DNA of 64,000 nt, from NCBI RefSeq assembly GCF_030162935.1, contig NZ_JASAUZ010000007.1:1-64000 (forward strand). Reading direction: 5' to 3'. Shown piece after piece: positions 3,346-34,403 of this stretch. A program made the translations under genes and the position numbers. Source of the stretch: Comamonas halotolerans (lineage in GTDB: Bacteria; Pseudomonadota; Gammaproteobacteria; Burkholderiales; Burkholderiaceae_C). Numbering within the stretch: position 1 is the stretch's first letter; each line of letters opens with the position of its first letter. The notes under the pieces were generated by a model. It was given only the letters and a program-made list of their open reading frames with translations. It made no database searches and was not told the DNA's origin.

Positions 3346-3356
3346 AGGAAGCCTCT

Positions 3357-4631: not shown

Positions 4632-4761
4632 ATCATGTGTGATATAGAATGAAAATATATTTAAATTAATTTAAGGGTTTTGATTTATATATAGATTTTT
4701 AAGTTAACTTGATTGTTTTTGCAATGAGTCATGTTTAAAAATGATAAATAATATTTACTAT

Positions 4762-4934: not shown

Positions 4935-5186
4935 ATTGCTAAATAATGATATTAGGGAGATGTTGAATCAATCTTCTTGTGGTAAAGTATATTTTATTTT
5001 AAATTGTCGCCGTTTGCTTAGGGTGCTAAAAATCAATGACTTGCCAATTATTTATAATGAAGAAATGATGCTTCTAAAATTTTTGGTAGGAAAATTCTGG
5101 TTTTTGTAAGTGTTTGTAAAGATTGGGTGAATCACTTTTCTTAATCAGGTGAAATATTTAAATTATTGAACCACATCAGTTATGCT

Positions 5187-5645
5187 ATGCGGATATTTTT
5201 ACTAAAAAATTTGATATTGTTCATTTTTCTATTCTCTCATGCTTCTTACTCGATGAGTTCTGAGTTTAGAGTTTGTTTTGATACGCATACATGTGTTGAA
5301 ACGAAAGAGTCAGAAGTCAAAAAAACATCAATAGATAATAGAATTGAAGATTTGCTTGAAAAAGCAGAATACTTTCGCCTTATACCCGACACAATAAAAT
5401 ATGTAAATGGGATTTACTATAGTGTAGGAATAATCAGGACAAAATCCAACCCAGATTCACCGGAGAAGTTTTGCGGTGCAGGTTATGAAGATTACTTGGT
5501 ATTTCTAGAATTTAACAAAAAGACTCTCAATCTTCTGGATAAAATAATTATACAAAGCTGTTTAAATTCAATATCATTAATTTCTGATGCTGGTGATGAT
5601 CCGGAGAAATCAATAAAAGCAAAGTCATCACCTATATCAATTTAA
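5187..5645 (+). CDS. exported small protein, possible immunity protein
   Basis: A 152-residue product starting MRIFLLKNLILFIFLFSHAS, a clear signal peptide. A TTG codon at 5166 would add seven residues ahead of the signal, so the ATG at 5187 is preferred, although no strong ribosome site is visible for either. The mature chain has four cysteines, two close to the N-terminus (VCFDTHTC) and two distal, possibly disulfide-forming. No known family is recognised. It follows repeat copy B as the split gene follows copy A, so by position it may be the immunity partner of the lost effector whose tail remains in copy B. Confidence 0.5.
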   Translation: MRIFLLKNLILFIFLFSHASYSMSSEFRVCFDTHTCVETKESEVKKTSIDNRIEDLLEKAEYFRLIPDTIKYVNGIYYSVGIIRTKSNPDSPEKFCGAGYEDYLVFLEFNKKTLNLLDKIIIQSCLNSISLISDAGDDPEKSIKAKSSPISI

Positions 5646-5899
5646 TATGAAGCAAGCTCACCACCTGATTTTAAATTGAAAAAATATAGAATTACGATAA
5701 GCAATTTCAACTTCAAAAAAGAGATTGTAAATTATTTTCCATAAAGTATAAATTAATTTTTCTATAAATAAATATGTTGTGTATGACGTGATTAAGATCT
5801 TAAAATTTTTTTAATATTGGTCCATACTCCTGTAAATGGCAATTGGCGAATTTATTCGTTAATGGAAAGTAAACGCTATGAACAACACACAGGCAAACA

Positions 5900-6352
5900 A
5901 TGAAACATAGAAAAATATATCGAGCTATCACCTTTGCTTTTCTTATGAGCTTGTCAATTTTCATTGTCAATCATTCTTTAAAAATCTATCAAGAGAAAAG
6001 TAAACCACTGGTATATAAACTAGAGTTTCCGTTAATGCTCACTGGTGCTGGAGAGGTGAAACAAACATATCTTCTCCCGAAAGGGACAAGTCTTTACTAC
6101 GATCAGAGCTTTCCGGAAGGGTTTGCAAGATATAAGGTTTACATCAATGTAGAAGGAGTAATGCTTGAGCCCAAACAAGTGACAGAAAAATTCTGGTTAG
6201 ATCCTCTTACTGCATTTCCAATTGGCGCAGAGCAACTCAAACAACTTCTGTTTGAATATCCTTTGTCTAAAGAGGATCTTGTTGCAGTATTAAATTCAAA
6301 ATCTCTATCAAAAGAAGATATTCGATCATTGCTTGAGGAATACAGCAAATAG
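5900..6352 (+). CDS. membrane-anchored small protein, T6SS-associated, possible immunity protein
   Basis: A 150-residue protein with an N-terminal membrane anchor (about residues 9-27) lacking an evident cleavage site, so the rest should face the periplasm. A central segment reads LPKGTSLYYDQSFPEGFARY and continues to a conserved-looking WLDPLTAFP. I have an impression, without a search, of having seen such sequences near T6SS tip genes in related bacteria. The C-terminus is helical and rich in Lys, Glu and Leu. It is the last gene of the AT-rich island. Its precise function is unknown. Confidence 0.5.
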   Translation: MKHRKIYRAITFAFLMSLSIFIVNHSLKIYQEKSKPLVYKLEFPLMLTGAGEVKQTYLLPKGTSLYYDQSFPEGFARYKVYINVEGVMLEPKQVTEKFWLDPLTAFPIGAEQLKQLLFEYPLSKEDLVAVLNSKSLSKEDIRSLLEEYSK

Positions 6353-19385: not shown

Positions 19386-21500
19386 ATGTCGGCTGATTAC
19401 AAAGTGCACGGCTCGGTTGCTGTGATCACACTCAACAACCCACCGGTCAATGGGCTGGGTTTGTCCACCCGCCGTGCCGTGATTGATGGCCTCAACCAAG
19501 CCAATGCCGATGCTGCGGTGCAGGCGATTGTGATCACGGGAGCTGGCAAGGCGTTCTCCGGCGGAGCCGACATCAAGGAGTTTGGCAAGGAAGCCGCACT
19601 GCAAGAGCCGAATCTGCACACCGTGATTGCCCAGGTAGAGCAGTCCGCCAAGCCAGTGGTGGCCGCGATTCACAGTGTATGCATGGGCGGTGGGCTGGAG
19701 CTGGCTCTGGGTTGTCACTACCGCATTGCTGCACCAGGTACGGTTGTGGCCTTGCCTGAAGTGAAGCTGGGTTTGCTGCCCGGAGCTGGTGGCACGCAGC
19801 GCTTGCCACGCGCCATTGGGGTGGAGCCAGCGCTGAACATGATTGTCAGTGGCGAATCGATCAAGAGCGAGATGCTCGCCCAAATTCCAGGCCAGCAGTT
19901 GTTCAACAAGCTGGCTGCCAGCCCTGAGGCTTTGGCCGCAGAAGCGCTCGCTTTGGCGCAGGAAGTGGGCGAGCGCCATGTTGCTTGCAATGAGCCTTTA
20001 CCACTGGTGCGTGACCTCAAGTGCAAGCATCCCAAGGGCGATGCCTACTTTGGTTTTGTGCGCAACATGGTCAAGGGCATGTCCAAAAACTATCCCGCAC
20101 CATTGAAGTGCGTGGATGCGGTGGAAGCTGCCACCAAGCGCAAGTTTCAGGATGGCTTGCTCTATGAGCGCGAGCTGTTCGTCAACCTGATGTGGACACC
20201 CGAGTCCCGTGCGCTGCGCCACTTGTTCATGGCGGAGCGCGCGACCACCAAGATTGCCGACATTCCGGCTGAGACGCCCACCCGCGAGATCAAGAAAGTG
20301 GGCGTGATTGGTGCTGGCACCATGGGTGGCGGTATCAGCATGAACTTCCTGAATGCGGGTATTCCGGTGACTATTCTGGAGATGAAGCAAGAAGCGCTGG
20401 AGCGTGGTGTCGGCATCATCAAAAAGAACTACGAAGCACAGGTCAAGAAGGGCAAGCTCAAGGAAGACAAGTACGCCCAGCGCATGGCATTGCTCTCCAC
20501 CACACTGAACTACGACGATCTCAAGGACTGCGACCTGATCATCGAAGCCGTGTTTGAAGAGCTGGGTGTGAAAGAAGCCGTGTTCAGGCAGCTGGATGCT
20601 GTTGCCAAGCCCGGTGCCATCCTGGCTTCCAACACTTCCACTCTGGATGTGGACAAGATTGCAGCATTCACAGCCCGTCCGCAGGATGTGGTCGGCATGC
20701 ACTTCTTCAGTCCTGCCAACGTCATGAAGCTGCTGGAAGTGGTGCGCGGCAAAGCCACAGGCAAGGATGTGATGGCGACGGTGATGCAGATTGCCAAGAA
20801 GATCCGCAAGACCGCCGTGGTCTCTGGCGTGTGCGACGGCTTTATCGGCAACCGCATGATTGAGCAGTACAGCCGCCAAGCAGGCTTCTTGCTGGACGAA
20901 GGTGCCACGCCCGAGCAGGTGGACAAGGCTGTCGAGAAGTTCGGTTTTGCCATGGGGCCCTTCCGCATGGGCGATCTGGCGGGTAACGACATTGGCTGGG
21001 CGATTCGCAAGCGCCGGGCGGTGGAGCGCCCCGGTATGAAATACAGCGCCAGTGCTGACCGGTTGTGCGAGATGGGTCGCTTTGGCCAAAAAACAGGCAA
21101 AGGCTGGTACGACTACGCGCCGGGCAAGCGCGATGCCATTCCCAGCCAGGAAGTGCTGGACATGATTGATGCGCACCGCAAGGCGATTGGCATCACTCCA
21201 CGCAAGATTTCGGACGAAGAAATCGTGCAACGCCTGGTGTTCTCCTTGGTCAACGAGGGTGCGCACATCCTGGAGGACGGCATTGCGAGCAAGCCGGGTG
21301 ATATCGACATGGTGTATCTGACGGGTTATGGCTTCCCCATCTACCGTGGTGGCCCCATGCATTACGCCAGCGAGCTGGGCCTGACCAATGTGGTGCAAGC
21401 CATGCAGCGCTTTGCCCAGAACCCCAATGACGATGGGGAGTTCTGGAAGCCTGCGCCGCTGTTGGCCCGTCTGGCCGCTGAAGGCAAGCCCTTCGCATGA
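19386..21500 (+). CDS. fadB: bifunctional enoyl-CoA hydratase / 3-hydroxyacyl-CoA dehydrogenase
   Basis: A 704-residue multifunctional beta-oxidation enzyme. The N-terminal crotonase domain shows GAGKAFSGGADIKEFG (oxyanion loop) and MGGGLELALGCHYRIA, then LPEVKLGLLPGAGGTQRLPR with the catalytic glutamates. The dehydrogenase part starts near residue 300 with the NAD loop VGVIGAGTMGGG and continues with ASNTSTLDVDKIA and GMHFFSPANVMKLLEVV holding the catalytic His. Length and order fit the FadB/FadJ-like family. GAAGGAG lies before the ATG. The thiolase gene follows 45 bp downstream, so hydration, oxidation and thiolysis of acyl-CoA are co-expressed. Confidence 0.9.
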   Translation: MSADYKVHGSVAVITLNNPPVNGLGLSTRRAVIDGLNQANADAAVQAIVITGAGKAFSGGADIKEFGKEAALQEPNLHTVIAQVEQSAKPVVAAIHSVCMGGGLELALGCHYRIAAPGTVVALPEVKLGLLPGAGGTQRLPRAIGVEPALNMIVSGESIKSEMLAQIPGQQLFNKLAASPEALAAEALALAQEVGERHVACNEPLPLVRDLKCKHPKGDAYFGFVRNMVKGMSKNYPAPLKCVDAVEAATKRKFQDGLLYERELFVNLMWTPESRALRHLFMAERATTKIADIPAETPTREIKKVGVIGAGTMGGGISMNFLNAGIPVTILEMKQEALERGVGIIKKNYEAQVKKGKLKEDKYAQRMALLSTTLNYDDLKDCDLIIEAVFEELGVKEAVFRQLDAVAKPGAILASNTSTLDVDKIAAFTARPQDVVGMHFFSPANVMKLLEVVRGKATGKDVMATVMQIAKKIRKTAVVSGVCDGFIGNRMIEQYSRQAGFLLDEGATPEQVDKAVEKFGFAMGPFRMGDLAGNDIGWAIRKRRAVERPGMKYSASADRLCEMGRFGQKTGKGWYDYAPGKRDAIPSQEVLDMIDAHRKAIGITPRKISDEEIVQRLVFSLVNEGAHILEDGIASKPGDIDMVYLTGYGFPIYRGGPMHYASELGLTNVVQAMQRFAQNPNDDGEFWKPAPLLARLAAEGKPFA

Positions 21501-21545
21501 TGCGCAGTGCGCCGTTGAACACCCAGAATTTGAAGGATTGAAGCT

Positions 21546-22721
21546 ATGACATCCGCAGTGATTGTTTCTACCGCGCGCACCCCGCTGGCCAAGAGCTGGA
21601 AGGGTTCGTTCAATATGACTTACGCGCCCACACTGGGTGCCCACGCCGTGCAGCATGCCGTGCAGCGCGCAGGCATCGATGGGGCAGACGTTGAAGACGT
21701 GATCATGGGCATGTCTTTGCCCGAAGGCACGCAAGGGGGCAATGTGGCCCGCCTGATTGCCATTCGCGCAGGCTTGCCGGTCACCACTTCGGGCCTGACC
21801 ATCAACCGTTTTTGCTCATCCGGGCTGCAATCCATTGCCTTGGCAGCGCAGCGCATCATTGCGGGTGAAAACGATGTATTGGTGGCTGGTGGCCTGGAGT
21901 CTATCTCCTGTGTGCAGCAGGAGCTGAACCATCACATGTTCCATGACCCTGATCTCATGAAGATGAAGCCAGAGGTTTACTGGAGCATGCTGCAAACCGC
22001 CGAGCAAGTGGCGCAGCGCTATCAGATCAGCCGTGATGCCATGGACGAATATGGCGCGGCCAGCCAGCAAAAAGCATGTGCAGCCCAGGCTGCAGGCCTG
22101 TTCGATCAGGAAATTGCTCCGATCACCGTGACCATGGGAGTGGCCGACAAGGTCATGGGGCTGAGCACCAAGCAAGTCACCGTCTCCAAGGACGAAGGCA
22201 CGCGTGAAGGCACCACCAAGGAAGGTATCTCCGGGCTACGCAGCGCATTGCCTGGGGGCGTGATCACAGCCGGAAATGCCAGCCAGTTCTCAGACGGTGC
22301 AGGTGCCTGTGTGCTGGTGCATGAAGACTATGCGAGCAAAAAAGGCTTGCAGCCCTTGGGGCGCTTTCTGGGCTTTGCCGTGGCAGGCTGCGAACCTGAT
22401 GAAATGGGTATTGGACCGGTGTTTGCCATCCCCAAGGTGCTCAAGAAGCTGGGCCTGAAGGTGGATGACATTGATCTGTGGGAGCTCAATGAAGCGTTTG
22501 CCGTGCAGGTGATCTACTGCCGCGACAAGCTTGGCATCCCAGGGAACAGGCTGAACGTTAACGGCGGCGCAATTGCGCTGGGCCATCCCTATGGACTTTC
22601 TGGCCAGCGCCTGACCGGCCACGCCCTCATTGAAGGCAAGCGCCGTGGCGCCAAGCGCGTGTGCGTGACCATGTGCATTGGTGGAGGCATGGGCGCTGCC
22701 GGGATTTTTGAGGTGCTTTGA
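21546..22721 (+). CDS. fadA: acetyl-CoA acyltransferase (3-ketoacyl-CoA thiolase)
   Basis: A 391-residue thiolase, which cleaves 3-ketoacyl-CoA with CoA in the last step of beta-oxidation. The acylated cysteine is C90 in [18 protein letters not shown]. The C-terminal catalytic segments are [15 protein letters not shown] with the His and [14 protein letters not shown] with the second Cys. Residues near 240 ([15 protein letters not shown]) carry the usual substrate-loop pattern; the pentapeptide commonly seen as GNASG is changed slightly. It follows fadB and is closed by a strong terminator, so fadB-fadA form one transcript. Confidence 0.9.
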
Positions 22722-22795
22722 GCCACTTTGGCGCAGTCGGGGGCCCATCCGTGATGGGCATGTGCACACCAGTGTCCCCCGCATTTCAATAAGCC

Positions 22796-22832
22796 AAGCC
22801 GCCCCTTCGAGCCGAGGGAAGGCGGCTTTTTT
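22796..22832 (+). terminator. terminator after fadA
   Basis: AAGCCGCC and GGCGGCTT form a GC-rich 8 bp stem, extended inward by CTTC pairing, followed by TTTTTT at 22827-22832. Confidence 0.88.
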
Positions 22833-22921
22833 ACCGCTTTGATTTTTCTTTAAACATAGCTGCCATCGCCGTTGCTTGTAGCTTGGTGAATGGGTGTTGG
22901 CAGTTATATCTGGTGCAAAAG

Positions 22922-24757
22922 ATGTCTCAACTACGATCAACCCTGGAATTTTTGGTGTATGACTGGCTGCAGGCCGAGAACCTGACCTCCCGAGAACGCT
23001 ATGCCGATCACAGCCGCGAGACTTTTGATGCAGTGATGGACACTTGCGAGCGCATTGCACGTGAAAAATACGCGCCCTTCAATCGCACGGTGGATACCCA
23101 GGAGCCAACGTTTGATGGCGAAAAAGTCATCCAGCCCGCCTGCACCAGCGAAGCACGCAAAGCCTATGCAGAAAGTGGCATGCTCAGCGCAGCCCAACCC
23201 TACGAAAAAGGCGGCATGCAGCTGCCTTATGTGGTGGAGGCGGCTGCCAACAGTTTTTTTGCCTGTGCCAGCATCAGCATTGGCTCCAACTTGCTCACGG
23301 TGGGCAATGCCAACTTGCTGCGTGTGCATGGCACGGCAATGCAACAGCAGGTGTTTGCGGACAATGAGTTCAATGGTCGCTGGGCGGGCACCATGGCCTT
23401 GTCGGAGCCGCAGGCAGGCTCCAGTCTGAGTGACATTGCCACCCGTGCAGAACCTGATGGCGCAGATTTTGAAAGCGACCCGCTGGGGGCACGATACCGC
23501 CTCAAGGGCAACAAGATGTGGATCAGTTCGGGCGATCACGAGCTGACTGAAAACATCGTGCATCTGGTGCTGGCCAAGATTCCGGGCCCAGATGGCAAAC
23601 TCATTGCGGGTGTGAAAGGTATTTCGCTGTTTATCGTGCCCAAGAAGCTGGTGGATACTGAAGGCCAGCTCACGGGTGAGCGCAACGATGTGGCGCTGGC
23701 CGGTCTGAACCACAAGCTGGGATGGCGCGGCACGACCAACACGCTGCTGAACTTTGGCGAAGGCAGATATCCGGTGCGCGGTGCTGCGGGTGCGATTGGT
23801 TATCTGGTGGGCAAGCCGCACGAAGGTCTCAAGTGCATGTTCCACATGATGAATGAAGCGCGCATCGGCATTGGCATGGCCGCCACGATGCTGGGCTTGG
23901 CAGGTTATTACGCCAGTCTGGACTACGCCAAGAATCGTCCCCAGGGCCGCCCCATGACCGAAGGTGGCAAAGATGCCAGCAGCGCGCAAGTGCCCATCAT
24001 TGAGCACTCGGATGTCAAGCGTATGTTGCTGGCCCAAAAGGCGTACTGCGAAGGCGCGCTGGCGCTGAATATGTACTGCGCCAGACTGGTGGATGAAGGT
24101 CGCACGGGCACGGCAGATGAAGCCGCACGCGCCAGGCTGCTGCTGGAAGTGCTGACGCCGATTGCCAAGAGCTGGCCCAGCGAAAACTGTCTGGAAGCCA
24201 ATTCCCTGGCCATACAGATTCATGGCGGTTATGGCTACACGCGGGACTTCCCCGTGGAGCAGTATTGGCGTGACAACCGTCTGAACATGATCCATGAAGG
24301 CACACATGGCATTCAGGCGGCAGACTTGCTGGGCCGCAAGGTGTTGATGCAAAACGGCGCAGGGCTGCAACTGTTGGCCCAAACAATTCAGGGCACGATT
24401 GAAAAGGCGTTGCCACAAGCTGCCTTGGCGCAATATGCCAATGATCTGGCGCAGGCACTGCAAGCGGTGTGTGCTGCCACCAAGACCGCGTGGGCGACAG
24501 GCAACCCGCAAGAAGCGCTGGCCAATGCCGTGCCTTATATGCAAGCCTTTGGGCATACAGTGCTGGCCTGGATATGGCTGGAGGTGGCGCTGAAGGTGCA
24601 AGAGCGCGATGCAGCGCTTGCTACTGCTGCCAACGCAGGGCGAATGGGAGCCGTGCGCTATTTCTACCACTATGAATTGCCCAAGATTGCAGCGTGGTTG
24701 AAGGTGGTGAATGCGCGGGACATGACATGTGCGCACATGTCGGTCGAGGCTTTCTAG
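22922..24757 (+). CDS. acyl-CoA dehydrogenase (long type with C-terminal extension)
   Basis: A 611-residue FAD flavoprotein that would introduce the 2,3 double bond into acyl-CoA. The start MSQLRSTLEFLVYDWLQ at 22922 is preferred over an upstream frame start at 22883, though the ribosome site is weak. Landmarks: AGTMALSEPQAGSSLSDIAT (FAD/substrate loop), KMWISSGDHEL, LIAGVKGISLFIVPK, HMMNEARIGIGMAATMLGLA, and QIHGGYGYTRDFPVEQYWRD then MIHEGTHGIQA. The extra ~150 residues at the C-terminus match the DmdC/FadE-like long subfamily. It follows the fad terminator, so it has its own promoter, but fits the same degradation pathway. Confidence 0.88.
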   Translation: MSQLRSTLEFLVYDWLQAENLTSRERYADHSRETFDAVMDTCERIAREKYAPFNRTVDTQEPTFDGEKVIQPACTSEARKAYAESGMLSAAQPYEKGGMQLPYVVEAAANSFFACASISIGSNLLTVGNANLLRVHGTAMQQQVFADNEFNGRWAGTMALSEPQAGSSLSDIATRAEPDGADFESDPLGARYRLKGNKMWISSGDHELTENIVHLVLAKIPGPDGKLIAGVKGISLFIVPKKLVDTEGQLTGERNDVALAGLNHKLGWRGTTNTLLNFGEGRYPVRGAAGAIGYLVGKPHEGLKCMFHMMNEARIGIGMAATMLGLAGYYASLDYAKNRPQGRPMTEGGKDASSAQVPIIEHSDVKRMLLAQKAYCEGALALNMYCARLVDEGRTGTADEAARARLLLEVLTPIAKSWPSENCLEANSLAIQIHGGYGYTRDFPVEQYWRDNRLNMIHEGTHGIQAADLLGRKVLMQNGAGLQLLAQTIQGTIEKALPQAALAQYANDLAQALQAVCAATKTAWATGNPQEALANAVPYMQAFGHTVLAWIWLEVALKVQERDAALATAANAGRMGAVRYFYHYELPKIAAWLKVVNARDMTCAHMSVEAF

Positions 24758-24977: not shown

Positions 24978-25727
24978 ATGGATGCGGGTCTGTGGTTTAC
25001 GCAGCTCAATGTCTGGCAGGTCATGCTGGTGGGTTTGGCGTTTTTTGCAGCCTTGTATGTGCTCGGCGGCTGGAGCATGCAGGCGCTGACACGGGCGCTG
25101 CATCAACGTGGCATAGGCAGGGTGCTGGATACGCGTCCGGTCAAGCCTGAACAGTTGCACAGAGAATGGCGACAGTCATTGCATTCCGTACTGATTTTTG
25201 GCACCGGCATGGTGGTGCCCTGGGGGCTGCTGCAACTGGGTTGGGCGCATTTGGCGCCAACCGCCAGCACAGGGCGTGTGCTGCTGGAAATTGTGGCGCT
25301 GATGCTCTGGAACGATGTGCACTTCTGGGTCAACCATCGTTTGCTGCATACCCGCTGGCTGTCACGCTTTCACACGGATCACCATCGCTCTTATGTGACC
25401 ACACCGTGGTCCACGTATAGTTTTCACCCGATTGAGGCGCTGATGCTGGGCAACATCATCCTGCTGCCCATGGTAGTGCACGACTTTTATTTCTGGTCGT
25501 TGGCCGCAGTACCGGTGTTGAGTCTGGTGCTGAATGTGATTGGTCACTCCAACTACGATTTTTTTCCACGAGTTTCCGACACGCATCCGCTGGCAGCCAG
25601 CCGCCGCCATCATTTGCACCATGCCCGGCCCAAGGGCAACTATGGTTTTGCGCTGGCATTCATGGATCAGTGGATGCGCACCCAGGCTGAGCCGTGGACC
25701 CCGCCACCAGCGAAAGGGTCACACTGA
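24978..25727 (+). CDS. membrane fatty acid hydroxylase / sterol desaturase family protein
   Basis: A 249-residue multi-spanning protein of the di-iron fatty acid hydroxylase superfamily. Four hydrophobic segments are visible (about 14-33, 69-90, 100-112, 145-185). The histidine boxes are HFWVNH at 115-120, HTDHH at 132-136 and HHLHH at 211-215, with further His residues between, giving the eight-His set of the family. Enzymes of this group hydroxylate or desaturate alkyl chains with O2. The ATG at 24978 is chosen; a GTG four codons upstream is possible. Its stop touches the ATG of the desaturase gene, so it heads a tight operon with other lipid-modifying genes. The substrate is unknown. Confidence 0.82.
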   Translation: MDAGLWFTQLNVWQVMLVGLAFFAALYVLGGWSMQALTRALHQRGIGRVLDTRPVKPEQLHREWRQSLHSVLIFGTGMVVPWGLLQLGWAHLAPTASTGRVLLEIVALMLWNDVHFWVNHRLLHTRWLSRFHTDHHRSYVTTPWSTYSFHPIEALMLGNIILLPMVVHDFYFWSLAAVPVLSLVLNVIGHSNYDFFPRVSDTHPLAASRRHHLHHARPKGNYGFALAFMDQWMRTQAEPWTPPPAKGSH

Positions 25728-26660
25728 ATGCCGCCAGCGCCGAACCGCACGGTCTTGCCGCGCTTGCGCCACTGGCGTGATCTGCAGTCTTTGGCGTATA
25801 TGGTGGCGCTGCCGCTGCTGGCCTGGTGGCAATGGCAGCATGGCTGGGTCTGGTGGCTTTACGGCTTGCAGCTGTTTTTGACCTTGGGCATTGGTGTGAT
25901 TCACCATAACCACACGCATTTGCGCATGTGGCACGGGCGCTGGGCCAACCGTGTGACCGATTACGCGCTCACGCTGTTGCAGGGGCACCCAACCTTTGTG
26001 TTCTGGCCAGCGCATGTGGGCAACCATCATCGTTTCCGGCATGGCCCGCAGGATGTCGCACGCACTTATCGGCCGGAGTTCGGTGGCGATACCAACCATC
26101 TGTGGGGTTATCTTATTCACCCTGCGCAAGCCGTGTGTGTGCTCTATCCCTTGTTCCTGCGATGGCTGGGCGGACTGCGCCACACCAGCCCAGGCGCATT
26201 TCGCTACTGCATGAGGCAATACGCGCTGTGGCTGAGCAGTTGGGCAGCGTTGCTGGTGCTGGACTGGCAGAAGGCATTGCTGTTGGTGATCGTGCCGCAG
26301 TTGCATGGGCTGCATTGGCTGCTGGCGACCAATTACCTGCAGCATGCGCATGCCGATGGTCGTCCGTTGAGCCGCTCGCAGCGAATTGATCCAGCGGTTT
26401 CCCTGAATTACGCACGCAATTTTGAAGGCTGGGTGAATCCTTTGCTGTTCAACATTGGCTTGCATACCGCGCACCATGAACACCCACAAGCCCATTGGTC
26501 GCAGCTGACGCAGCTGCATGCGCAGCATTACAGGCACCGGGTGACACCTGCACTCAACGAAGCTGGTTTGCTGTCCTATATGGGGCGCGTCTTTGTCTTG
26601 GGGCTGTTTTGGCGCAAGGCGCGCACCCAGCCACAAATGCCACCTGAAACTCTTTGCTAA
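25728..26660 (+). CDS. membrane fatty acid desaturase family protein
   Basis: A 310-residue acyl desaturase-like protein with several membrane helices (about 21-38, 41-58, 125-150, 170-195). The three His boxes characteristic of membrane di-iron desaturases are HHNHTH at 59-64, HVGNHH at 96-101 and HTAHHEHP near 243-250. They bind two irons and use O2 to desaturate or hydroxylate acyl chains. The start is directly after the hydroxylase stop with no gap, and the ketosynthase follows after 16 bp. Two different di-iron membrane oxygenases in one operon suggest successive modification of the same alkyl chain. Confidence 0.83.
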   Translation: MPPAPNRTVLPRLRHWRDLQSLAYMVALPLLAWWQWQHGWVWWLYGLQLFLTLGIGVIHHNHTHLRMWHGRWANRVTDYALTLLQGHPTFVFWPAHVGNHHRFRHGPQDVARTYRPEFGGDTNHLWGYLIHPAQAVCVLYPLFLRWLGGLRHTSPGAFRYCMRQYALWLSSWAALLVLDWQKALLLVIVPQLHGLHWLLATNYLQHAHADGRPLSRSQRIDPAVSLNYARNFEGWVNPLLFNIGLHTAHHEHPQAHWSQLTQLHAQHYRHRVTPALNEAGLLSYMGRVFVLGLFWRKARTQPQMPPETLC

Positions 26661-26676
26661 TCAGGATTTATTGCCT

Positions 26677-28635
26677 ATGCCAGTTGCCTATTCCAACGTC
26701 TATTTGCATGCAGCGGGCATGTTCTTGCCGGGCGAGCCCGTAGATAACGACGGTATGGATGCTTTTGTGGCGCCGCTGAACCGCATTTCAGAGCGCATCA
26801 AGCGCCGCATCTTGGCAGAAAACGGGATCCAGACGCGCCATTACGCCATCGATGGTGAGGGACGCACGGTTTTCAGCAATGCGCAAATGGCAGCAGGAGC
26901 GATTGAGCAGACTTTGGCGCAGTCGGGCAGGGCGTTGAGCGATGTGAGTTTTTTGTCCAGTGGATCTTCGGGTGGTGATTCCTTGATGCCCGGCTTTGCC
27001 AGCATGATCCAGGGAGAGATGTCAGCGCCACCAATGGAAACCTTGTCGGTACACGGTGTGTGTGCTGCCAGCGTGGGCGCATTGCAGGCAGCGGCTTTAG
27101 CCGTGGAGAGTGGGGCGCATGCGCTGGCACTGTCTGTGGCGAGTGAAATGCCTTCGCGCCTGTTCAAGCGCTCGCGCTATGCAGCGCAGGGCTACGATAC
27201 CGATTTTGATGCGCATTTCTTGCGCTGGATGCTTTCCGACGGTGCAGGCGCGGTGTTGCTGGGTGGTCCTCAGGCCCTGCCGCATGCGAAGGGTCTGCGA
27301 TTGAAGCTCAAATGGACGCACCAGCGCAGCTTTGCTGGCGACTACCCGGTATGCATGCAACTGGGTTTGACTCCTGACCGCAGCAAGAGCCATCTGGACT
27401 TTCCCGCCTGGTCAGACGCAGAGGCTGCAGGGGCGCTGGCCTTGCGCCAGGATATCCGCCTGTTGCCCCATCTGTTTGATGTATGCATTCATGAGTACGC
27501 CGACCTGGCCCATAAAGGCTGGGTGCCTGAGCGCGGCATTGACCACTTTTTGTGCCACTACTCGTCAGAGCGCTTCATGCCAGTGGTTGAAGAGTTGCTG
27601 GACAAGGCCCAGTTGTCGATACCGCGCGAGCGTTGGTGGAGCAATCTGGCCTGGCGTGGCAACACAGGCGCGGCTTCTATTTTTGTCATGCTCTGCGAGT
27701 TTTTGCAGAAGGAGGCCGCACGACTGAAGGCTGGCGACACTGTGTTGTGCTTCATTCCGGAGTCAGGCCGCTTCACCGCAGGCTATATGTTGTGGGAGGT
27801 GGAGCAGAACACACCTGAGGCTTCTGCTGGGCAATCTGTCGCGGGTGGCTTCAATGTGACTGCACAGCCTGCCGTTGCATCTGCCGCGCAGGTGGTGGAC
27901 GATGCCTTGCCTGATGTGCGCACCATTGCGGCGCCCCACGATCCAGCCACGGCACCTGTCGTGCTGGCGCCGCTGCTGACCGAGCTGGCCAGCATCTGGC
28001 AGGAGTACCGTTCCCAGGTGTGGCGCACACCTTTGCTTCAGCGTATTCGCACACGTGAGTTGCGTACCGAAGACTATGTGCGCTGGATGGGGCACTGGAT
28101 TCCGCAAGTGCGTGAAGGCAGTCTCTGGATGCGGGAGGGCGCGGCATCATTGACCGGCGATTACGCAGCGCTGGCAGCCTTGATCGATCTGCATGCCGAT
28201 GATGAGCAGCACGATTTCAAGGTGCTGCACAGTGACTACCTCAAGGCGGGAGGCACCGTGACAGATATTGCCCAGCTGCGCCGCAACCCAGGTGGTGAGG
28301 CTTTGAACTCCTATCTGCATGGGCTTGCGGCAACACCCAACCCCATCGGCTTGCTGGGAGCCATCTATATCATCGAAGGCACGGGTCAGCGTATTGTGCC
28401 GAGTCTGCTGCCTTTGCTGCGGGCGGCCTTGCCTCTGCCTCCTGATGCCTTCCGCTTTCTGGAGTATCACGGAGAGAATGATGTACACCACCTGGAGCGC
28501 TGGCTCATGGCGGTGCAAATTGCCATGGAGCTTGATGGCAGTGGCACAGCGCAGCAAACCATCGTGCAGACAGCAAGGCACACTGCTGCGCTGTATCTGA
28601 TGCAGTTCCAGCATGTGCTGCCTGTGCAGCACTGA
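26677..28635 (+). CDS. ketosynthase III fused to a haem-oxygenase-like di-metal oxidase domain
   Basis: A 652-residue fusion. Residues 1-~385 have the KAS III/thiolase fold with the likely catalytic triad C129 (VHGVCAASVG), H294 (FLCHYSS) and N329 (RGNTGAASI). After a Pro/Ala-rich linker (~390-435), residues ~438-650 look like the haem-oxygenase-like di-metal oxidase family (relatives of UndA, TenA and PqqC): a His/Asp/Glu cluster at 506-512 (HADDEQH), E567, and H598-x3-D602-x2-H605. KAS III enzymes join acyl units; the oxidase domain usually cleaves or oxidises a carboxylate. The fusion could condense an acyl chain and then oxidise or decarboxylate the product. The start at 26677 follows the desaturase stop by 16 bp. 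The product is unknown. Confidence 0.8.
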   Translation: MPVAYSNVYLHAAGMFLPGEPVDNDGMDAFVAPLNRISERIKRRILAENGIQTRHYAIDGEGRTVFSNAQMAAGAIEQTLAQSGRALSDVSFLSSGSSGGDSLMPGFASMIQGEMSAPPMETLSVHGVCAASVGALQAAALAVESGAHALALSVASEMPSRLFKRSRYAAQGYDTDFDAHFLRWMLSDGAGAVLLGGPQALPHAKGLRLKLKWTHQRSFAGDYPVCMQLGLTPDRSKSHLDFPAWSDAEAAGALALRQDIRLLPHLFDVCIHEYADLAHKGWVPERGIDHFLCHYSSERFMPVVEELLDKAQLSIPRERWWSNLAWRGNTGAASIFVMLCEFLQKEAARLKAGDTVLCFIPESGRFTAGYMLWEVEQNTPEASAGQSVAGGFNVTAQPAVASAAQVVDDALPDVRTIAAPHDPATAPVVLAPLLTELASIWQEYRSQVWRTPLLQRIRTRELRTEDYVRWMGHWIPQVREGSLWMREGAASLTGDYAALAALIDLHADDEQHDFKVLHSDYLKAGGTVTDIAQLRRNPGGEALNSYLHGLAATPNPIGLLGAIYIIEGTGQRIVPSLLPLLRAALPLPPDAFRFLEYHGENDVHHLERWLMAVQIAMELDGSGTAQQTIVQTARHTAALYLMQFQHVLPVQH

Positions 28636-28652
28636 GACACGAGGAGGTGTGG

Positions 28653-29573
28653 ATGGACAAGCACAAGGACTTCTTGGATCAGCCTTGGGATGAGCGTGAC
28701 CCCAGCCCATGGCTGGCACTGTACCTGGACCAGAGCACGCCGCTGCCAGACGCGGTGAAAGCTGCGTGGTTGCGTGACTGCAGCAGCAGCTCTCGCCAAT
28801 ACATGCTGCCTTTTTTGCGCCCCTTGGCACGGCTGAGCATCATCCTGATCCAGATTCTCAAAGTGCTGCTGCCCAAGCGCTGGGCGCATTCGAAACTGCT
28901 GCACAAAATACTAGCATTCAGCATGAACACCTTTGTCTCTCCTGAGGCGAACTGGTTGATCATGCGCCACTTTCATCTGGGCTCGCACATCCTGGCTTTT
29001 GTGGCTGGCAATGCCCCAACGCGTGTGAGTACCACGCCTATAGAGCCCACCTGTATTGATGACATCAAGGACGAGCTGTTCCTCAAGCACGACTTGAATC
29101 TGTTCAATTTTGTCATCCGCCTCAATCACGCGCTGCGTGCGGCAGGGCAAGAGTTACAGCCTGTGGCTGCACCCGATTTTTCGATGGTGAAAGAGCCTGA
29201 TTTGCGCCTGGAAGATATGCCCCGAGGCCGCTTCAACAAGCTGGACCTGCAAAGCGCGATTGAGGTTTACACCCCGGTCTACCAGTTGCTGCTGACCGAC
29301 AACGACTTCTGGCGTGCCAGCAATTCTTTGCAGCTCGACGAAACCATTGCCATTTACTGCGCCAAGATTCTGGCTTCGCCTGAGCACCTGGTCATGCTTA
29401 ACAACAAGCATCCGCTGGTGCCGCTGTCTACATTGCGTGCTGGTCACCGCCTGGTGTTGCACGGTTTGTCGACAGAGATGCTGCATTGCCTGCTGATGCG
29501 CATGGGCAGTGGTGAGCAAGTCGTACCTGCACAAACGCTGGCCAGAATGCACGCAATGATGCAAGCTGCTTAA
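28653..29573 (+). CDS. uncharacterised protein of the lipid-modifying operon
   Basis: A 306-residue protein with no recognised domain. The ATG at 28653 is chosen because GAGGAGG lies five bases upstream; it follows the fusion gene by 17 bp. Features: an acidic N-terminus (DFLDQPWDERDPSPW), a hydrophobic or amphipathic stretch around 50-75 (LARLSIILIQILKVLLP), FHLGSHILAF, and a generally helical C-terminal half with LQLDETIAIYC. The hydrophobic patch suggests membrane association. As the last gene of the operon before a hairpin, it is probably a dedicated partner of the ketosynthase fusion. Confidence 0.65.
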   Translation: MDKHKDFLDQPWDERDPSPWLALYLDQSTPLPDAVKAAWLRDCSSSSRQYMLPFLRPLARLSIILIQILKVLLPKRWAHSKLLHKILAFSMNTFVSPEANWLIMRHFHLGSHILAFVAGNAPTRVSTTPIEPTCIDDIKDELFLKHDLNLFNFVIRLNHALRAAGQELQPVAAPDFSMVKEPDLRLEDMPRGRFNKLDLQSAIEVYTPVYQLLLTDNDFWRASNSLQLDETIAIYCAKILASPEHLVMLNNKHPLVPLSTLRAGHRLVLHGLSTEMLHCLLMRMGSGEQVVPAQTLARMHAMMQAA

Positions 29574-29582: not shown

Positions 29583-29608
29583 AGCCGCCTCTTTCAAGGG
29601 AGGCGGCT
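29583..29608 (+). terminator. hairpin at the end of the lipid-modifying operon
   Basis: A 9 bp perfect stem AGCCGCCTC / GAGGCGGCT lies 9 bp after the last stop. An A-run precedes it but no T-run follows on the plus strand, so it may end transcription weakly or act mainly on the other strand. Confidence 0.6.
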
Positions 29609-30024
29609 GAAGATACAAGCGTCAGCGCTGAGATTCACCACAGTTCTAGACGGGCAAATTCTAGGATTCTTTGTACCGTTGGGGGCGCCATGGCTGGGTT
29701 GGTTTTTTACATTACGAAATGCAAATTTTTCAGTCAATGCAGTAATTAGGCAAGGCGCACTTTTATTGCAACTGCTGGGTTTTTAGTAAAAAGCTATGCA
29801 GCTGATAGTCTTATATAAGACATTGTTTTGCGTATTTTTGTAAATGTAAGCAGTGGAAAAAATCCAACTCTTTTATAAGACTTGATGTTTTTTTGAGCAA
29901 TATCGAGAGCCCTGCCTGGAAACCCTTTGGTTTGATCTGGTATTTTTTGCTTAGTCATCTAGGGTGAGAGGGGATTGTCAAGGCCGCCGTGCATGCTTTA
30001 GGCGCTTGCTGCAAAATACTTGGC
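29609..30024. other. AT-rich promoter region before the MarR gene
   Basis: About 400 bp without a gene, AT-rich especially at 29700-29900 (for example GATAGTCTTATATAAGACATTG). The repeated motif CTTATA(T)AAGAC occurs at 29809-29820 and, as CTTTTATAAGAC, at 29869-29880. It may be a binding site for the MarR protein encoded next. I cannot place promoters. Confidence 0.45.
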
Positions 30025-30525
30025 ATGCAAACTATTTCTGCGGAAGCTCCGCATACCAACGCGCCTGACGTCGTCCAGGCGCGTTGTCGTTTTGGACTTT
30101 TGATTGGCAGCGTTTATCGCCAATGGCGTAAGAAAGTGGACGAAAGCTTTAAAGCCCAGGGCTTGAGCGATGCAACACGTATGCCCTTGTTGATCTTGTA
30201 TGCGCAAGGTGAAGCCATGTTGCAAAAAGACCTGGCGCATGCGCTGTCGCTGGACACCTCATCGCTGGTGCGTGTGCTGGCGCAGTTGCGCGATGCCAAT
30301 CTGGTGCAGTGGGCCAGCAATCCAGCCGATCGACGTACCAAGTGCATTGCATTGACGCCCTCGGGAGAGAAAACTGCGGCGCTGATTTTGCAAAAAAGCC
30401 TGGAAATTGAGCAGGCCATCCTGGCGGATTTGACCGATACGGAACTGTCCGTCACGCGAGCTACCTTGCAAAAGATCGCGTGCAGCTTTGAGCGCCTGGA
30501 TGAAGCCGCTGCGCGTAGCGCGTAA
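30025..30525 (+). CDS. MarR family transcriptional regulator
   Basis: A 166-residue winged-helix regulator. The start at 30025 (MQTISAEAP) is preferred over one 12 codons upstream. The DNA-binding part runs from ~45 to 110: PLLILYAQGEAMLQKDLAHA, LSLDTSSLVRVLAQL (recognition helix) and the wing NPADRRTKCIALTPSGEK, with the conserved D-x-R of the family. The helical ends would form the dimer. MarR proteins usually repress neighbouring efflux or catabolic genes until a small ligand binds. Its gene lies directly before two MFS transporter genes on the same strand and just after the lipid operon, so these are the likely targets. Confidence 0.85.
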   Translation: MQTISAEAPHTNAPDVVQARCRFGLLIGSVYRQWRKKVDESFKAQGLSDATRMPLLILYAQGEAMLQKDLAHALSLDTSSLVRVLAQLRDANLVQWASNPADRRTKCIALTPSGEKTAALILQKSLEIEQAILADLTDTELSVTRATLQKIACSFERLDEAAARSA

Positions 30526-30568
30526 TTGTCGTGGACACCCTAAAAACACATAACAACGGTTGTTGAAA

Positions 30569-31774
30569 ATGAAATTCAAAGTTTCACCCTTTGTCTGGGT
30601 GAGTTTTGCCATGATCGTGGGGGTGATGGGTACGGCCCTCATCAGCCCCTTGTACGCTTTGTACAAGGAAACATGGCAGTTGCAGGCCAGTGATATCTCG
30701 CTGATCTATGTGATCTACATGGGCGGTGCGTTGTGCAGCCTGTTGTTCCTCGGGCGCCTGCCGGATCGTGCAGGTTTCAAACGTGTGATGCAGGCAGGTT
30801 TGCTGCTGGTGTTGTTGGGCACCGTGGTGAGCATGCTGGCATGGAATATGACCAGCCTGATTCTGGGGCGCATTTTGGTGGGTGTGGCATCCAGCATGTT
30901 GACGACCAGCGCTACGCTGGGTCTGTCGCAGCTGTCGCGGCCAGGCCAAATGCAGCGGGTTGCCATGATCACCGGTTTTTTGCTGGCCTTTGGTTTCGGG
31001 CTTGGCCCATTGGTTGGCGGCATCATGGGTCAATGGGCACCATACCCGCTGGTTACAACCTACATCCCTACATTGCTTCTGGGCTGCATTGGTTTCTATG
31101 CGCTCACACACCTTGCCTTGCCTGCATCGGTGCAGGCCGAGAAGCCGCAACCGCTGCATTGGCGCGATGCGCTGCCCAAGTTGACCTGGCCTCACTCCAG
31201 TGACTCGAAAGCCTTTTTACTCACGAGTGCACTTCCATTTCTGGCCTTTGGCGTTTTTGGCCTGTATGCCTCCATGTCGCCGTTGTTCCTGGACAAGTTG
31301 GTACCCTGGCATGGCCCGGTTGTCAGTGGCACCGCGATTGCAGTGATCTTGCTGGCCTCGGCTTGCGTGCAAATCCTTGCTGGCAATGTGCCGACGCACT
31401 GGTGCGGTCTGGGCGGTTTGCTGAGTCTGGCACTGAGCAATGCCTTGCTGATGCTGAACCTGTGGGCTGGCTCGGCCACCTTGTTTGCTCTGGGCGTGGC
31501 GCTGACAGCCATCGGCCACGGTATGAGCATGTTGTCAGGCATGGGCATGATCAATCGCATTGCGCGTCCTGACAATCGATCGGGGCTGCTGTCCACCTAT
31601 CTGGTGATTGGGTATATCGGCAGCATGGTGCCGATGATGGCCATCGGCTGGATTGCCGACCACTGGGGGATGAACGTTGCAGTTTCCAGTTTTTGCAGCT
31701 TTGTGGTGGTGCTGGCAGTGACTGTGGCGGCGCTGTTCTTCAAACACCCCCGCATGCGTACAGCCATTCATTGA
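30569..31774 (+). CDS. MFS transporter
   Basis: A 401-residue, 12-helix major facilitator protein. The ATG at 30569 begins MKFKVSPFVWVSF and leads into the first membrane helix. The loop between helices 2 and 3 reads LFLGRLPDRAGFKRVMQAG, the G-x-L-x-D-R-x-G-r signature. Helix 5 has AFGFGLGPLVGGIMGQW, the proline/glycine-rich motif C common in drug-efflux members. It follows the MarR gene by 43 bp, is probably controlled by it, and precedes another MFS gene by 2 bp. Likely a proton-driven exporter of a small lipophilic compound; the substrate is not evident. Confidence 0.85.
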   Translation: MKFKVSPFVWVSFAMIVGVMGTALISPLYALYKETWQLQASDISLIYVIYMGGALCSLLFLGRLPDRAGFKRVMQAGLLLVLLGTVVSMLAWNMTSLILGRILVGVASSMLTTSATLGLSQLSRPGQMQRVAMITGFLLAFGFGLGPLVGGIMGQWAPYPLVTTYIPTLLLGCIGFYALTHLALPASVQAEKPQPLHWRDALPKLTWPHSSDSKAFLLTSALPFLAFGVFGLYASMSPLFLDKLVPWHGPVVSGTAIAVILLASACVQILAGNVPTHWCGLGGLLSLALSNALLMLNLWAGSATLFALGVALTAIGHGMSMLSGMGMINRIARPDNRSGLLSTYLVIGYIGSMVPMMAIGWIADHWGMNVAVSSFCSFVVVLAVTVAALFFKHPRMRTAIH

Positions 31775-31776
31775 TC

Positions 31777-32979
31777 ATGTCTAGCGTTCGATCTGAGTCC
31801 GCAGCACTGAAGGTGCCGCTCTGGTTGCTGGTGCTGGTGACCCTGAGCGGCACCATGGCCATGCATATTTTTGTTCCTGCCCTGCCTGTAGCGGGTGCTG
31901 CGTTGGGTGCGGCACCGTCAGGCATGCAGCAGACAATTACTTTATACGTTTTGGGTTTGGCAGTAGGTCAGCTGATCTATGGACCGCTGTCGGACACCTT
32001 GGGTCGCCGTCCAACCTTGCTTGTCGGGCTGGGCCTGTACCTGCTTGGCAGTGTGCTGGCTTTATGCGCACCCACACTGGATTGGCTGGTGGGTGCTCGC
32101 TTGCTTCAGGCTTTGGGCGGGGCTTCAGGTATCACGCTGGGCAGGGCTATTGTGCGTGATACTTCGGCGGCAGACCGTGTGACCAAAGATTTGGCACTGC
32201 TGAATTTGCTGACGCTCGTAGGGCCGGGTCTGGGGCCTGTGGTAGGTGGCTATCTGGCAGAGCATTTCGGATGGCGTGCCATCTATCTGTTTCTGGTATT
32301 CATGGCATGTGCCATGGTGGCTTGTGCATGGCGCTTGCTGCCGGAGACGAATGTGCAGCGACGGCCTTTGTTTCTCAGCAGTATTGCAGCCGATTACCGT
32401 AGCTTGCTGACCAATCCGCGCTATGTAGCGTTTATGGTTGGCGGCGCTTGCTCCACCACGGCTTTGTATCCGTATCTGGCCACGGCGCCATATATAGTGC
32501 ATGAGCAACTGGGCTTGCCTATCAGCAGCGTAGGCTGGTTTGCCGCCAGCACCATTGTTGGAGCCAGCTTGGGCACCATGACCACCCGTCGTTTGGCGGG
32601 CAAAGTGGCTACCGAGCGTTTTTTGTATGTGGGCGCCAGCATTGGCCTGTGCTTTGCCATCTTGTTCCTGCTGGTGCAGTTGTTGGGATGGATGACTGCG
32701 CCGCTGCTTTTGGGGCTGACGATTGCAATGACGTTTGGTGCTGGCTTGGCCAGCCCAGCTGCACTGTCCCGCGCGTTGTCTGCAGCGCCTGCACTGGCTG
32801 GGGCGGCAGCAGGTTTCTATGGCTTTGGCCAAATGGCAATGGGTGCCATTGGCACCAAAATAGTGGGCCTGGGCGAGGTGCCTGCAGTTGCATGTGCGCT
32901 GAGCCAGATTGCAATAACGGGGTTGGCACTGCTCAGTTACCGCTTTGCTGCTTCGCGGCCCACGCCCGGAAACGCTTAA
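31777..32979 (+). CDS. Bcr/CflA-type MFS drug exporter
   Basis: A 400-residue, 12-helix transporter of the Bcr/CflA drug-resistance group. The start at 31777 (MSSVRSESAALKVPLW) is 2 bp after the previous stop, so the two MFS genes are coupled. Landmarks: SGTMAMHIFVPALPVAGAAL in helix 1, QLIYGPLSDTLGRRPTLLVG (loop 2-3) and LVGPGLGPVVGGYLAEHFGW (motif C). These are usually proton antiporters for chloramphenicol-like drugs, cystine or other small molecules. The stop codon overlaps the stop of the convergent gene on the other strand. Confidence 0.87.
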   Translation: MSSVRSESAALKVPLWLLVLVTLSGTMAMHIFVPALPVAGAALGAAPSGMQQTITLYVLGLAVGQLIYGPLSDTLGRRPTLLVGLGLYLLGSVLALCAPTLDWLVGARLLQALGGASGITLGRAIVRDTSAADRVTKDLALLNLLTLVGPGLGPVVGGYLAEHFGWRAIYLFLVFMACAMVACAWRLLPETNVQRRPLFLSSIAADYRSLLTNPRYVAFMVGGACSTTALYPYLATAPYIVHEQLGLPISSVGWFAASTIVGASLGTMTTRRLAGKVATERFLYVGASIGLCFAILFLLVQLLGWMTAPLLLGLTIAMTFGAGLASPAALSRALSAAPALAGAAAGFYGFGQMAMGAIGTKIVGLGEVPAVACALSQIAITGLALLSYRFAASRPTPGNA

Positions 32980-34220
32980 GCTGCGGTAGCTTGTGGTTCT
33001 CGCCGCAATGTCCACGCTACCGCACTGGCCAGCAAGAGCAGCGCTGCGGCTGCGCCAAAAGCCACCCAGTGCGTGTGGTGGGTCTCATAGCCCCAACCAC
33101 CAAGCCAGGCACTGATCATGGCCCCCACCTGGTGGCCCAGGTAAGCCCAGCCATAAAGAACGCCTACTTTTTTCACGCCATAAACGTCAGCCAGTATGGC
33201 GGAAGACAGCGCAATGCTTCCAGCCCATACCACGCCGCCCACAGCGGCCACACCATAAAGTTGCCAGGCACTGCCAACCAGCAGCAAACCGATAAACCCA
33301 AGGCCCCGGACACCGTAAATCACGCTCAACAGCTTGCGCCGCTCCACCTTGTCGGCAATGCGCCCCAACACCATGGTGCTAGGAATGGCGACCAGCCCAA
33401 TCAGCCCGATGCCCAAGGCGCTGGTTGAGGCATCGAAACCATGGTCTTGAAGCATGGGCATGCAGTGGGTGCCCATCAGATTCATGCTGAAGCCGCAGGC
33501 AAAAAGGCCAAAAGTCACCTTCCAGAAAGTGCGGCTGCGCATGGACTCCCAGACGCTTAGCGCGGCCAGCGGTGCTGTGCGAGCTGCTGCAGGTGCACCA
33601 TGGGCTGAGGGCAGTGGCGCATCTGCATTCTCGGGTGCGTTATCACGGACCACCAGCAGTGCAGTGGGCACCGTGATGAGTGCAAAGATGGCGGCAAAGC
33701 CCAGCAGCGTGTGCTGCCAGCTAAAGAATTGCAAGGCCCAGCCCAGCGCAGGCGTCATCACCGCAATGCCCGCCATGGAGCCGGTGGACAGGAAGAACAA
33801 TGCCATACCGCGGCGACGATTGAACCAGCGGCTGATGACGGGGGTGAGGGCGACGGGGCTGGTCAGCGCAGCGCCCACCGACATCCATACACCAAAGCTC
33901 CAGAAGATGCCCGATGCCGTGCGCGTGTTAACGGCCCACAGGGTGGACAGCACCAGGATAGCAGTGCCTAGCAGCAGCACTTTGCGGGTACTGGTGCGCG
34001 CCACTAGCCACCCCGCCAGCGGCATGCCAAGGCCATAGCACAGCATGCCAATGGCCACAATGCTGGCCAACAGGCTGCGGCTGAATCCCAGGTCCTGCGC
34101 CATGGGCAGAAACAGTGGGCCAATGCCCAAGCGCAGACCAACGGTCAAAAGTGTCAGGATGGTGGCGGCAGCCACGATGTTCCAGCCAAAGTACCAGCTG
34201 GACGATGTTGTGCGTGTCAT
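32976..34220 (-). CDS. MFS transporter
   Basis: A 414-residue, 12-helix major facilitator. The start at 34220 (MTRTTSSSWYFGWN) is preferred over an upstream ATG because it places helix 1 at the usual distance. Visible: a monocarboxylate/oxalate-like first helix (GWNIVAAATILTLLTVGLRL), YGLGMPLAGWLVARTSTRKV in loop 2-3 and RGMALFFLSTGSMAGIAVMT. It is convergent with the Bcr-like gene; the two stop codons share the palindrome CTTAAG. Substrate unknown; organic acids are typical for this branch. Confidence 0.8.
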   Translation of the reverse strand: MTRTTSSSWYFGWNIVAAATILTLLTVGLRLGIGPLFLPMAQDLGFSRSLLASIVAIGMLCYGLGMPLAGWLVARTSTRKVLLLGTAILVLSTLWAVNTRTASGIFWSFGVWMSVGAALTSPVALTPVISRWFNRRRGMALFFLSTGSMAGIAVMTPALGWALQFFSWQHTLLGFAAIFALITVPTALLVVRDNAPENADAPLPSAHGAPAAARTAPLAALSVWESMRSRTFWKVTFGLFACGFSMNLMGTHCMPMLQDHGFDASTSALGIGLIGLVAIPSTMVLGRIADKVERRKLLSVIYGVRGLGFIGLLLVGSAWQLYGVAAVGGVVWAGSIALSSAILADVYGVKKVGVLYGWAYLGHQVGAMISAWLGGWGYETHHTHWVAFGAAAALLLLASAVAWTLRREPQATAA

Positions 34221-34403
34221 TGTTATCAAGCTTCCACTGAGAGTAGGGCAGCTTGTCTCCATGCCTGCCCAGGCCTGGAGCGCATCCTAAAGGCGCTTGC
34301 CTGCGATTGTTGTCACGCAAGCTATTAGGATTAATAAAATTTGATAGCGAGAGATGCTTGAAATCTCTACGCTGACGGCTGATTGGGCTGTAGGTGAAAA
34401 ATA

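Follow-up and report, generated by a model that had tools for sequence, protein, structure and literature searches.

The four-gene operon and its constant trio

We analysed a stretch of 64,000 nucleotides of Comamonas halotolerans DNA (contig NZ_JASAUZ010000007.1, positions 1 to 64,000; the window hereafter), from a host genome of 4.05 Mb in 74 contigs, and focused on an operon of four plus-strand genes, A-B-C-D (24978-29573), the probable product of which is a fatty molecule not yet described. Gene A (24978-25727, +) encodes a 249-aa protein of the membrane fatty-acid-hydroxylase superfamily (PF04116), gene B (25728-26660, +) a 310-aa membrane fatty acid desaturase (PF00487), gene C (26677-28635, +) a 652-aa fusion of a StlD/DarB-like ketosynthase with a haem-oxygenase-like dimetal oxidase (HDO) domain, and gene D (28653-29573, +) a 306-aa helical protein of the family DUF6999 (PF22523). 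A sequence-only reading of the window had placed the four genes with gaps of 0, 16 and 17 bp, and both coordinates and gaps proved exact. All four genes showed purifying selection (pN/pS 0.14-0.51 in six pairwise comparisons). The order A-B-C-D was kept in 31 of 36 related loci, and the arrangement is thus not due to chance; these loci were retrieved by patterns taken from the window's own protein and consist largely of close relatives, a bias of the sample, the nearest named ones belonging mostly to Comamonas and relatives. A consensus scan gave no promoters and PADLOC returned no match for a defence function. A hairpin with a T-run lies just 3′ of D (29583-29608, -); it is a pattern match only and a weak one, as the scan gave five terminator-like sites and shuffled sequence 6.3 on average.

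The sequence-only reading had treated all four genes as one lipid operon and proposed counting how often they co-occur. For the related loci this held well: A was found in 35 of 36 and B in 32, while D was found in 35, the remaining D lying beyond a contig end. The picture was different in 17 more diverse loci, picked for a DUF6999, fusion or ketosynthase match, where A was present in four and B in five. B was missing from all three Lysobacter loci, the flanks of the Corticibacter locus (L041) carried neither A nor B, and both were again absent from six loci of the class of genome G517. The operon is therefore a conserved one of lipid type, but A and B are dispensable additions to a smaller constant set, chiefly betaproteobacterial ones.

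This set became apparent from the same 17 loci. In 15 of them, DUF6999 was immediately preceded by a ketosynthase and an HDO, which were fused in six and separate genes in nine. The two exceptions look damaged: L094 carries DUF6999 without a ketosynthase, near an integrase-core (rve) transposase-like gene (rve and HTH_21 domains; L094:7889-9912), which suggests loss of the ketosynthase-HDO part via an insertion element, and L096 retains only ketosynthase and DUF6999 fragments. The conserved unit is the trio of ketosynthase, HDO and DUF6999, with D as the constant partner of C.

We followed the spread of the trio in draws of one genome per species. DUF6999 was present in nine of 398 Pseudomonadota genomes (G000, G128, G219, G122, G466, G607, G640, G657 and G517), and an HDO profile run on 398 genomes scored at least 249 bits in nine, the same nine, with the next HDO at 98.9 bits. 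Both draws include the window's own genus, and their identity was judged by equal numbers and agreeing handles. DUF6999 occurred in 6 of 274 genomes of the window's own class (that of G657) and in 6 of 240 of the class of G517, to which G688, G718, G764, G795 and G815 also belong and which is presumably Alphaproteobacteria. A search at family level matched 16 of 299 genomes: 11 carried the fusion, the window's included, and all 11 had A, B and D adjoining, while the other five showed a ketosynthase match of 38-41% only, with no A, B or D in their short loci. Some fusion-bearing genomes also carry a second ketosynthase of this 38-41% type. Among 14 named control genomes, to which our view outside Pseudomonadota is limited, one, Caulobacter vibrioides, had DUF6999 above the cut-off. 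Across these loci, the trio persists as a unit in both Beta- and Gammaproteobacteria and also in a second Pseudomonadota class, ketosynthase and HDO being fused in one clade.

The constancy of these partners bears on the idea that the HDO has no dedicated product and protects against oxidative stress, acting like Acinetobacter DtpC in desiccation tolerance. A stress role is described for DtpC, which is of HDO type, but its gene is co-transcribed with katE (both from the excerpted text of PMC13232832), whereas the constant partners here are a ketosynthase with a full triad and DUF6999. We regard this explanation as improbable.

Both accessory proteins have the complete His boxes attributed to them by the sequence-only reading. 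A scored 73.1 bits against PF04116 (cut-off 31), with boxes at 115, 132 and 211, and B 61.5 bits against PF00487 (cut-off 29.7), with HHNHTH, HVGNHH and HTAHH at 59, 96 and 246. No second match to B was found in this genome, and neither A nor B had a meaningful solved relative. The presence of a membrane hydroxylase and a desaturase in Betaproteobacteria would suit a redox lipid or signal embedded in the membrane, such as a hydroxylated alkyl-ring head group, in which the HDO would hydroxylate the ring and DUF6999 would attach or transfer it to lipid. In favour of this, the operon of L072, a locus of the second class, continues after 21 bp into a transporter-acyltransferase-AMP-ligase fusion (L072:5697-9098). 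Such a neighbour was seen in one of the 17 loci, however, and the other neighbours scanned (a part of all) vary, so that we hold this rather unlikely.

Ketosynthase and oxidase domains of gene C

The ketosynthase part of C (26677-27807, +; aa 1-377) matched PF08541 (ACP_syn_III_C) at 31.4 bits (cut-off 26.6), and scored 17.7 bits, below the cut-off of 24, with the partner model PF08545 (ACP_syn_III). The nearest NCBIfam family for this N-terminal domain was StlD/DarB (NF005293, E 1.4e-93), and the closest solved relative StlD (PDB 5gk0, E 2.7e-63). The triad C129, H294 and N329, already picked out from the letters, aligned to the Cys, His and Asn of StlD and was invariant in 22/22 trio ketosynthases; the aligned StlD His fits the PDB title ‘H302A mutant of StlD’, allowing for a 20-residue tag. 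Eight more residues (R183, S187, C226, M227, Q258, N323, E362 and S363), a set chosen in this analysis for its contrast with the genome's FabH, were present in 22/22 trio and 11/11 other StlD/DarB-like ketosynthases and absent from that FabH. E157, presumably the counterpart of the cyclisation-related E154 of StlD, was uninformative as a cyclisation-specific residue: the genome's FabH also has Glu here and one of the 22 trio rows has Asp. With the FabH model TIGR00747, C scored 56.3 bits (cut-off 292.1) and the genome's own FabH 412.9. Of the β-ketoacyl synthase III (KAS III) fused to a haem-oxygenase-like oxidase that had been proposed, the condensing enzyme and its fusion to an HDO are thus retained, but not the FabH type.

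We then compared the trio with StlD/DarB-type enzymes. With NF005293, C reached 314 bits, under the curated cut-off of 450, and five other trio ketosynthases 301-414, whereas the scores were 492-589 for four StlD/DarB-like controls, of which one came from Prevotella and the others from genomes of the same bacterial family. The DarB-proper model NF053539 (cut-off 550) gave 251 bits for C and 473-536 for the four controls, likewise below its cut-off; it therefore does not separate trio from controls. In a ketosynthase tree of 34 rows, the fused proteins formed a single clade (support 100/99) and ten StlD/DarB-like rows another (support 100/99). L095 (a trio ketosynthase) and L097 (a Streptomyces ketosynthase) were long and unstable rows, and the trio label required three changes. 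Since it shares the StlD/DarB-type residues yet scores below the StlD/DarB cut-off, the ketosynthase of C looks like a sister group of the StlD/DarB ketosynthases and not like a FabH-type KAS III, and it is thus more likely to condense two chains than simply to initiate one.

A linker (27808-27921, +; aa 378-415), Ala/Pro-rich and variable according to the alignment and the listing for the 36 loci, joins this part to the HDO-like domain (27922-28632, +; aa 416-652); its residues 380-409 were modelled with pLDDT below 50. The HDO-like domain was supported by profile and by fold. C matched PF14518 (Haem_oxygenas_2) at 35.7 bits (cut-off 28.9), while the free-standing HDO domain of L003 gave no PF14518 match at E 0.1. 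The C-terminal domain model was good (pLDDT mostly 85-95, about 90) and adopted an HDO fold, with matches, by TM score over target length, to CADD (1rcw, 0.84), 3dde (0.76) and UndA (4wx0, 0.69). Thus, the profile search and structure prediction proposed as checks by the sequence-only reading both recovered the oxidase domain.

Conservation within the domain was examined in 20 HDO sequences: that of the window, six fused and nine separate ones from the 17 loci, and four from the 36 close-kin loci. Seven residues were identical in all 20, fused and free-standing, and also invariant in a 28-sequence alignment of close relatives. They make up a non-canonical core alpha-1 motif, H506-x3-E510-x2-D513 (28192-28215, +), the core alpha-2 carboxylate E567 (28375-28377, +) and the core alpha-3 motif H598-x3-D602-x2-H605 (28468-28491, +). 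The alpha-2 and alpha-3 residues had been named correctly beforehand, but the His/Asp/Glu cluster given as 506-512 has to be redrawn as the alpha-1 motif above, H512 not being conserved. The seven residues are those of a metal-type site, and metal binding and use of O2 are predicted from them. It could be argued that the domain serves the ketosynthase as a scaffold and catalyses no reaction itself, as position 513 is Asp here and His in 21/21 other HDOs. The invariance of all seven metal-type residues in 20/20 sequences, nine of them separate HDO proteins, argues against this, and we consider it very improbable.

The alpha-1 motif distinguishes the trio from its relatives: H-x3-E-x2-D in 20/20 trio sequences versus Y-x3-E-x2-H in 21/21 nearest other HDOs, these being the best-scoring ones with loci returned, from 80 other genomes matching the HDO profile. 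The alpha-1 His of those HDOs is thus replaced by Asp (513), and a new His appears seven residues earlier (506). Position 480 is Glu or Asp in 20/20 trio HDOs and His, Gln or Phe in the others; this carboxylate is possibly an extra ligand like E189 of SznF, the mapping being by spacing and not by distances. The spacing from alpha-1 carboxylate to His also differs in CADD and SznF. For AetD, the site of which is said to resemble those of UndA and others, alpha-1 provides D76 and H79, alpha-2 a Glu and alpha-3 H-x3-E-x2-H, and a Glu of the auxiliary helix (SznF E189, RohS E93) marks HDOs that are not substrate-triggered (excerpts of PMC11611611).

These comparisons are relevant to an UndA-like route, in which the ketosynthase would make a linear β-keto product, by an OleA-like head-to-head or a FabH-like reaction, and the HDO would cleave it oxidatively to a ketone, alkene or shortened lipid. 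UndA is indeed among the fold matches and no aromatase is encoded by the four operon genes. On the other side, the trio has alpha-1 E-x2-D with a shifted His in 20/20 sequences where AetD has D-x2-H, the carboxylate at 480 could be the SznF-type ligand tied to HDOs that are not substrate-triggered (both per the same excerpts), and the ketosynthase carries StlD/DarB-type residues, not those of FabH. We judge this route unlikely, though the strongest of the rivals. Hence, of the UndA-type oxidation or decarboxylation suggested by the sequence-only reading, the HDO fold stands; as the alpha-1 residues are unlike those of the nearest HDOs, UndA-like decarboxylation is not to be assumed.

In the wider surroundings of the superfamily, a lower-scoring HDO group was found in 80 of 398 genomes at E 1e-10. 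The next-nearest HDO was fused to an AMP-binding domain in two of four proteins scanned (L115:19-2142 and L117:1468-3519), both encoded by other genomes within the window's class.

Gene D, acyl supply and neighbouring genes

The fourth gene, previously left as unrecognised, matched DUF6999 (PF22523) with 427.1 bits against a cut-off of 27. DUF6999 is a named Pfam family without a recorded function. The model of D was fair and helical (pLDDT 81, pTM 0.81). R105, H106, H146, D147, D198, N224, D229, H270 and E275 were invariant in 21/21 sequences, and these polar residues suggest an active site. A profile search of PDB sequences found no related solved protein, with a single match at E 0.15. Two resemblances were considered and discarded. 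D as a hidden second HDO, from its E/H and H-x4-E-x2-H look, had a profile comparison probability of 0.2%, E98 was not conserved, and PolF entries in the fold search were not significant (E 1.2 or worse); an HD-domain hydrolase, from the H...HD...D look, had no such title in 50 of 67 fold rows, none of them significant.

As reported by the sequence-only reading, neither an acyl carrier protein nor an acyl ligase is encoded by the four operon genes (Pfam). The single PP-binding match of the genome lies on another contig (C1:402616-402813), near fabH at C1:405209, and one other KAS III-like match was found in the genome. The acyl units are thus probably supplied by primary fatty acid synthesis or as CoA esters, in line with the earlier proposal of a supply by primary metabolism. 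Directly upstream of the operon (19386-24757) are FadB-, thiolase- (FadA-) and acyl-CoA-dehydrogenase-type genes (Pfam). They were rejected as a substrate supply: all three homologues were placed likewise in one of the 36 loci (L033), and elsewhere single weak matches were seen in L045 and L059, with flanks reaching about 5 kb upstream of A.

Genes for a MarR-family regulator and three MFS transporters follow downstream of the operon (30019-34262). In two of 36 loci (L024, L033), this regulator and the second of the transporters had homologues near the operon. Farther away, a stretch at 205-6352 falls to 29% GC and contains a 779-aa ORF, followed by several small, possibly secreted ORFs. By eye, the 779-aa ORF resembles a peptidoglycan-degrading enzyme, and it had no Pfam match at E 1e-5. 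In two loci of the window's class, the place of A and B directly upstream of the trio is taken by a gene for a His-rich membrane protein of 185 to 188 aa (L003:8439-8996, L073:11441-12001); that of L003 (Pseudoalteromonas) had no Pfam match.

A possible oxygen-dependent module and its known relatives

Our preferred explanation, which we hold tentatively and slightly short of an even chance, is a compact oxygen-dependent module combining a StlD/DarB-like condensation of two chains, oxidation by the tethered HDO, and finishing by DUF6999 and the membrane oxygenases. The components, their conservation and the fold were observed; each of the following reaction steps is inferred. C129 of the ketosynthase would be loaded with a fatty acyl group, which primary metabolism would provide as acyl-ACP or acyl-CoA. 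As in StlD and DarB, a second (β-keto)acyl thioester would then be joined to it, and the product would be a two-chain compound of β-diketo or cyclohexanedione type. The flexible linker would pass this product on to the HDO, whose metal centre would oxidise it with O2 by aromatisation, hydroxylation or oxidative decarboxylation. In dialkylresorcinol (DAR) pathways, DarB is labelled ‘DAR-cyclase’ and DarA ‘DAR-aromatase’ in a table of PMC3949708, and the HDO possibly fills the place of DarA. A third dedicated step would fall to DUF6999, a helical protein in which a set of His, Asp and Glu residues is invariant. Finally, the alkyl chains may be decorated by the membrane hydroxylase (in Betaproteobacteria and Lysobacter) and, in most betaproteobacterial loci, by the desaturase too.

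Several points weigh against the module. None of the four genes is an aromatase, the genes other than C belonging to PF04116, PF00487 and PF22523 (DarA was not sought genome-wide). The 314 bits of C against the 450 of the StlD/DarB model imply that its product may differ, and the border between trio and other StlD/DarB-like ketosynthases is unsettled for rows L095 and L097. The ketosynthase half of the fusion model was poor, with pLDDT below 50 at residues 11-203 and a mean of 62.3 for the whole fusion. D had no significant PDB fold match, none reaching E 0.001 (best E 1.2), and that it acts as a third enzyme is a guess read from conserved polar residues.

A bolder form of this explanation, more doubtful but plausible, is that the trio makes a new class of oxygen-tailored two-chain lipid. 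A three-enzyme module found in at least two Pseudomonadota classes would then channel the product of a StlD/DarB-sister ketosynthase to an HDO with a relocated His, and DUF6999 would be a helical metalloenzyme family not recognised before. If true, the relocated His would constitute a new metal ligand set and possibly a new O2 chemistry, and the DUF6999 match of Caulobacter vibrioides would bring the module within reach of a genetic model. Independently of this form, a fixed biosynthetic unit is now named, in which DUF6999 gains a functional setting, and it draws attention to a metal oxidase whose ligand set is altered and whose substrate would come from a tethered condensing enzyme. The operon is present in Comamonas and Delftia genomes. 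Both genera include strains that grow in the laboratory, so that gene deletion combined with lipid analysis offers a direct way to look for the product.

As far as openly licensed literature is concerned, no described product was found, in agreement with the sequence-only reading, which knew of none. In titles and abstract starts among the papers listed by our searches of that literature we found no description of a ketosynthase-HDO fusion, and earlier work may exist elsewhere; ‘DUF6999’ was not mentioned in it, nor were ‘iron-containing redox enzyme family’ and ‘ACP synthase III’ mentioned jointly. The excerpted main text of a 2026 HDO review (PMC13108848) contains neither ‘ketosynthase’ nor ‘fusion’. 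One annotated record splits the unit into ‘beta-ketoacyl-ACP synthase III’, ‘iron-containing redox enzyme’ and ‘hypothetical protein’.

The superfamilies themselves are known; it is for their combination and the change of the metal site that no description was found. Closest among solved and curated proteins are StlD (5gk0) and DarB, ketosynthases of cyclohexanedione and dialkylresorcinol biosynthesis, which share with C the Cys/His/Asn triad and the eight family-type residues. Unlike them, the trio ketosynthases score below the family cut-off, stand apart in the tree (L095 and L097 being unsure) and have an HDO and DUF6999 as fused or adjacent partners. With the HDO superfamily (UndA, CADD, SznF, AetD; PF14518), C shares the fold, the alpha-2 Glu and the alpha-3 H-x3-D-x2-H; it differs from the nearest other HDOs, which have E-x2-H, by its alpha-1 H-x3-E-x2-D and by fusion of the domain to a ketosynthase. 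In the AMP-binding-HDO fusions of L115 and L117, an HDO is likewise tethered to an enzyme of acyl-activating type, but the alpha-1 motif is canonical and the partner is an AMP-binding domain, not a ketosynthase. Lastly, D is a strong member of the DUF6999 family, which is tied here to a genomic partner.

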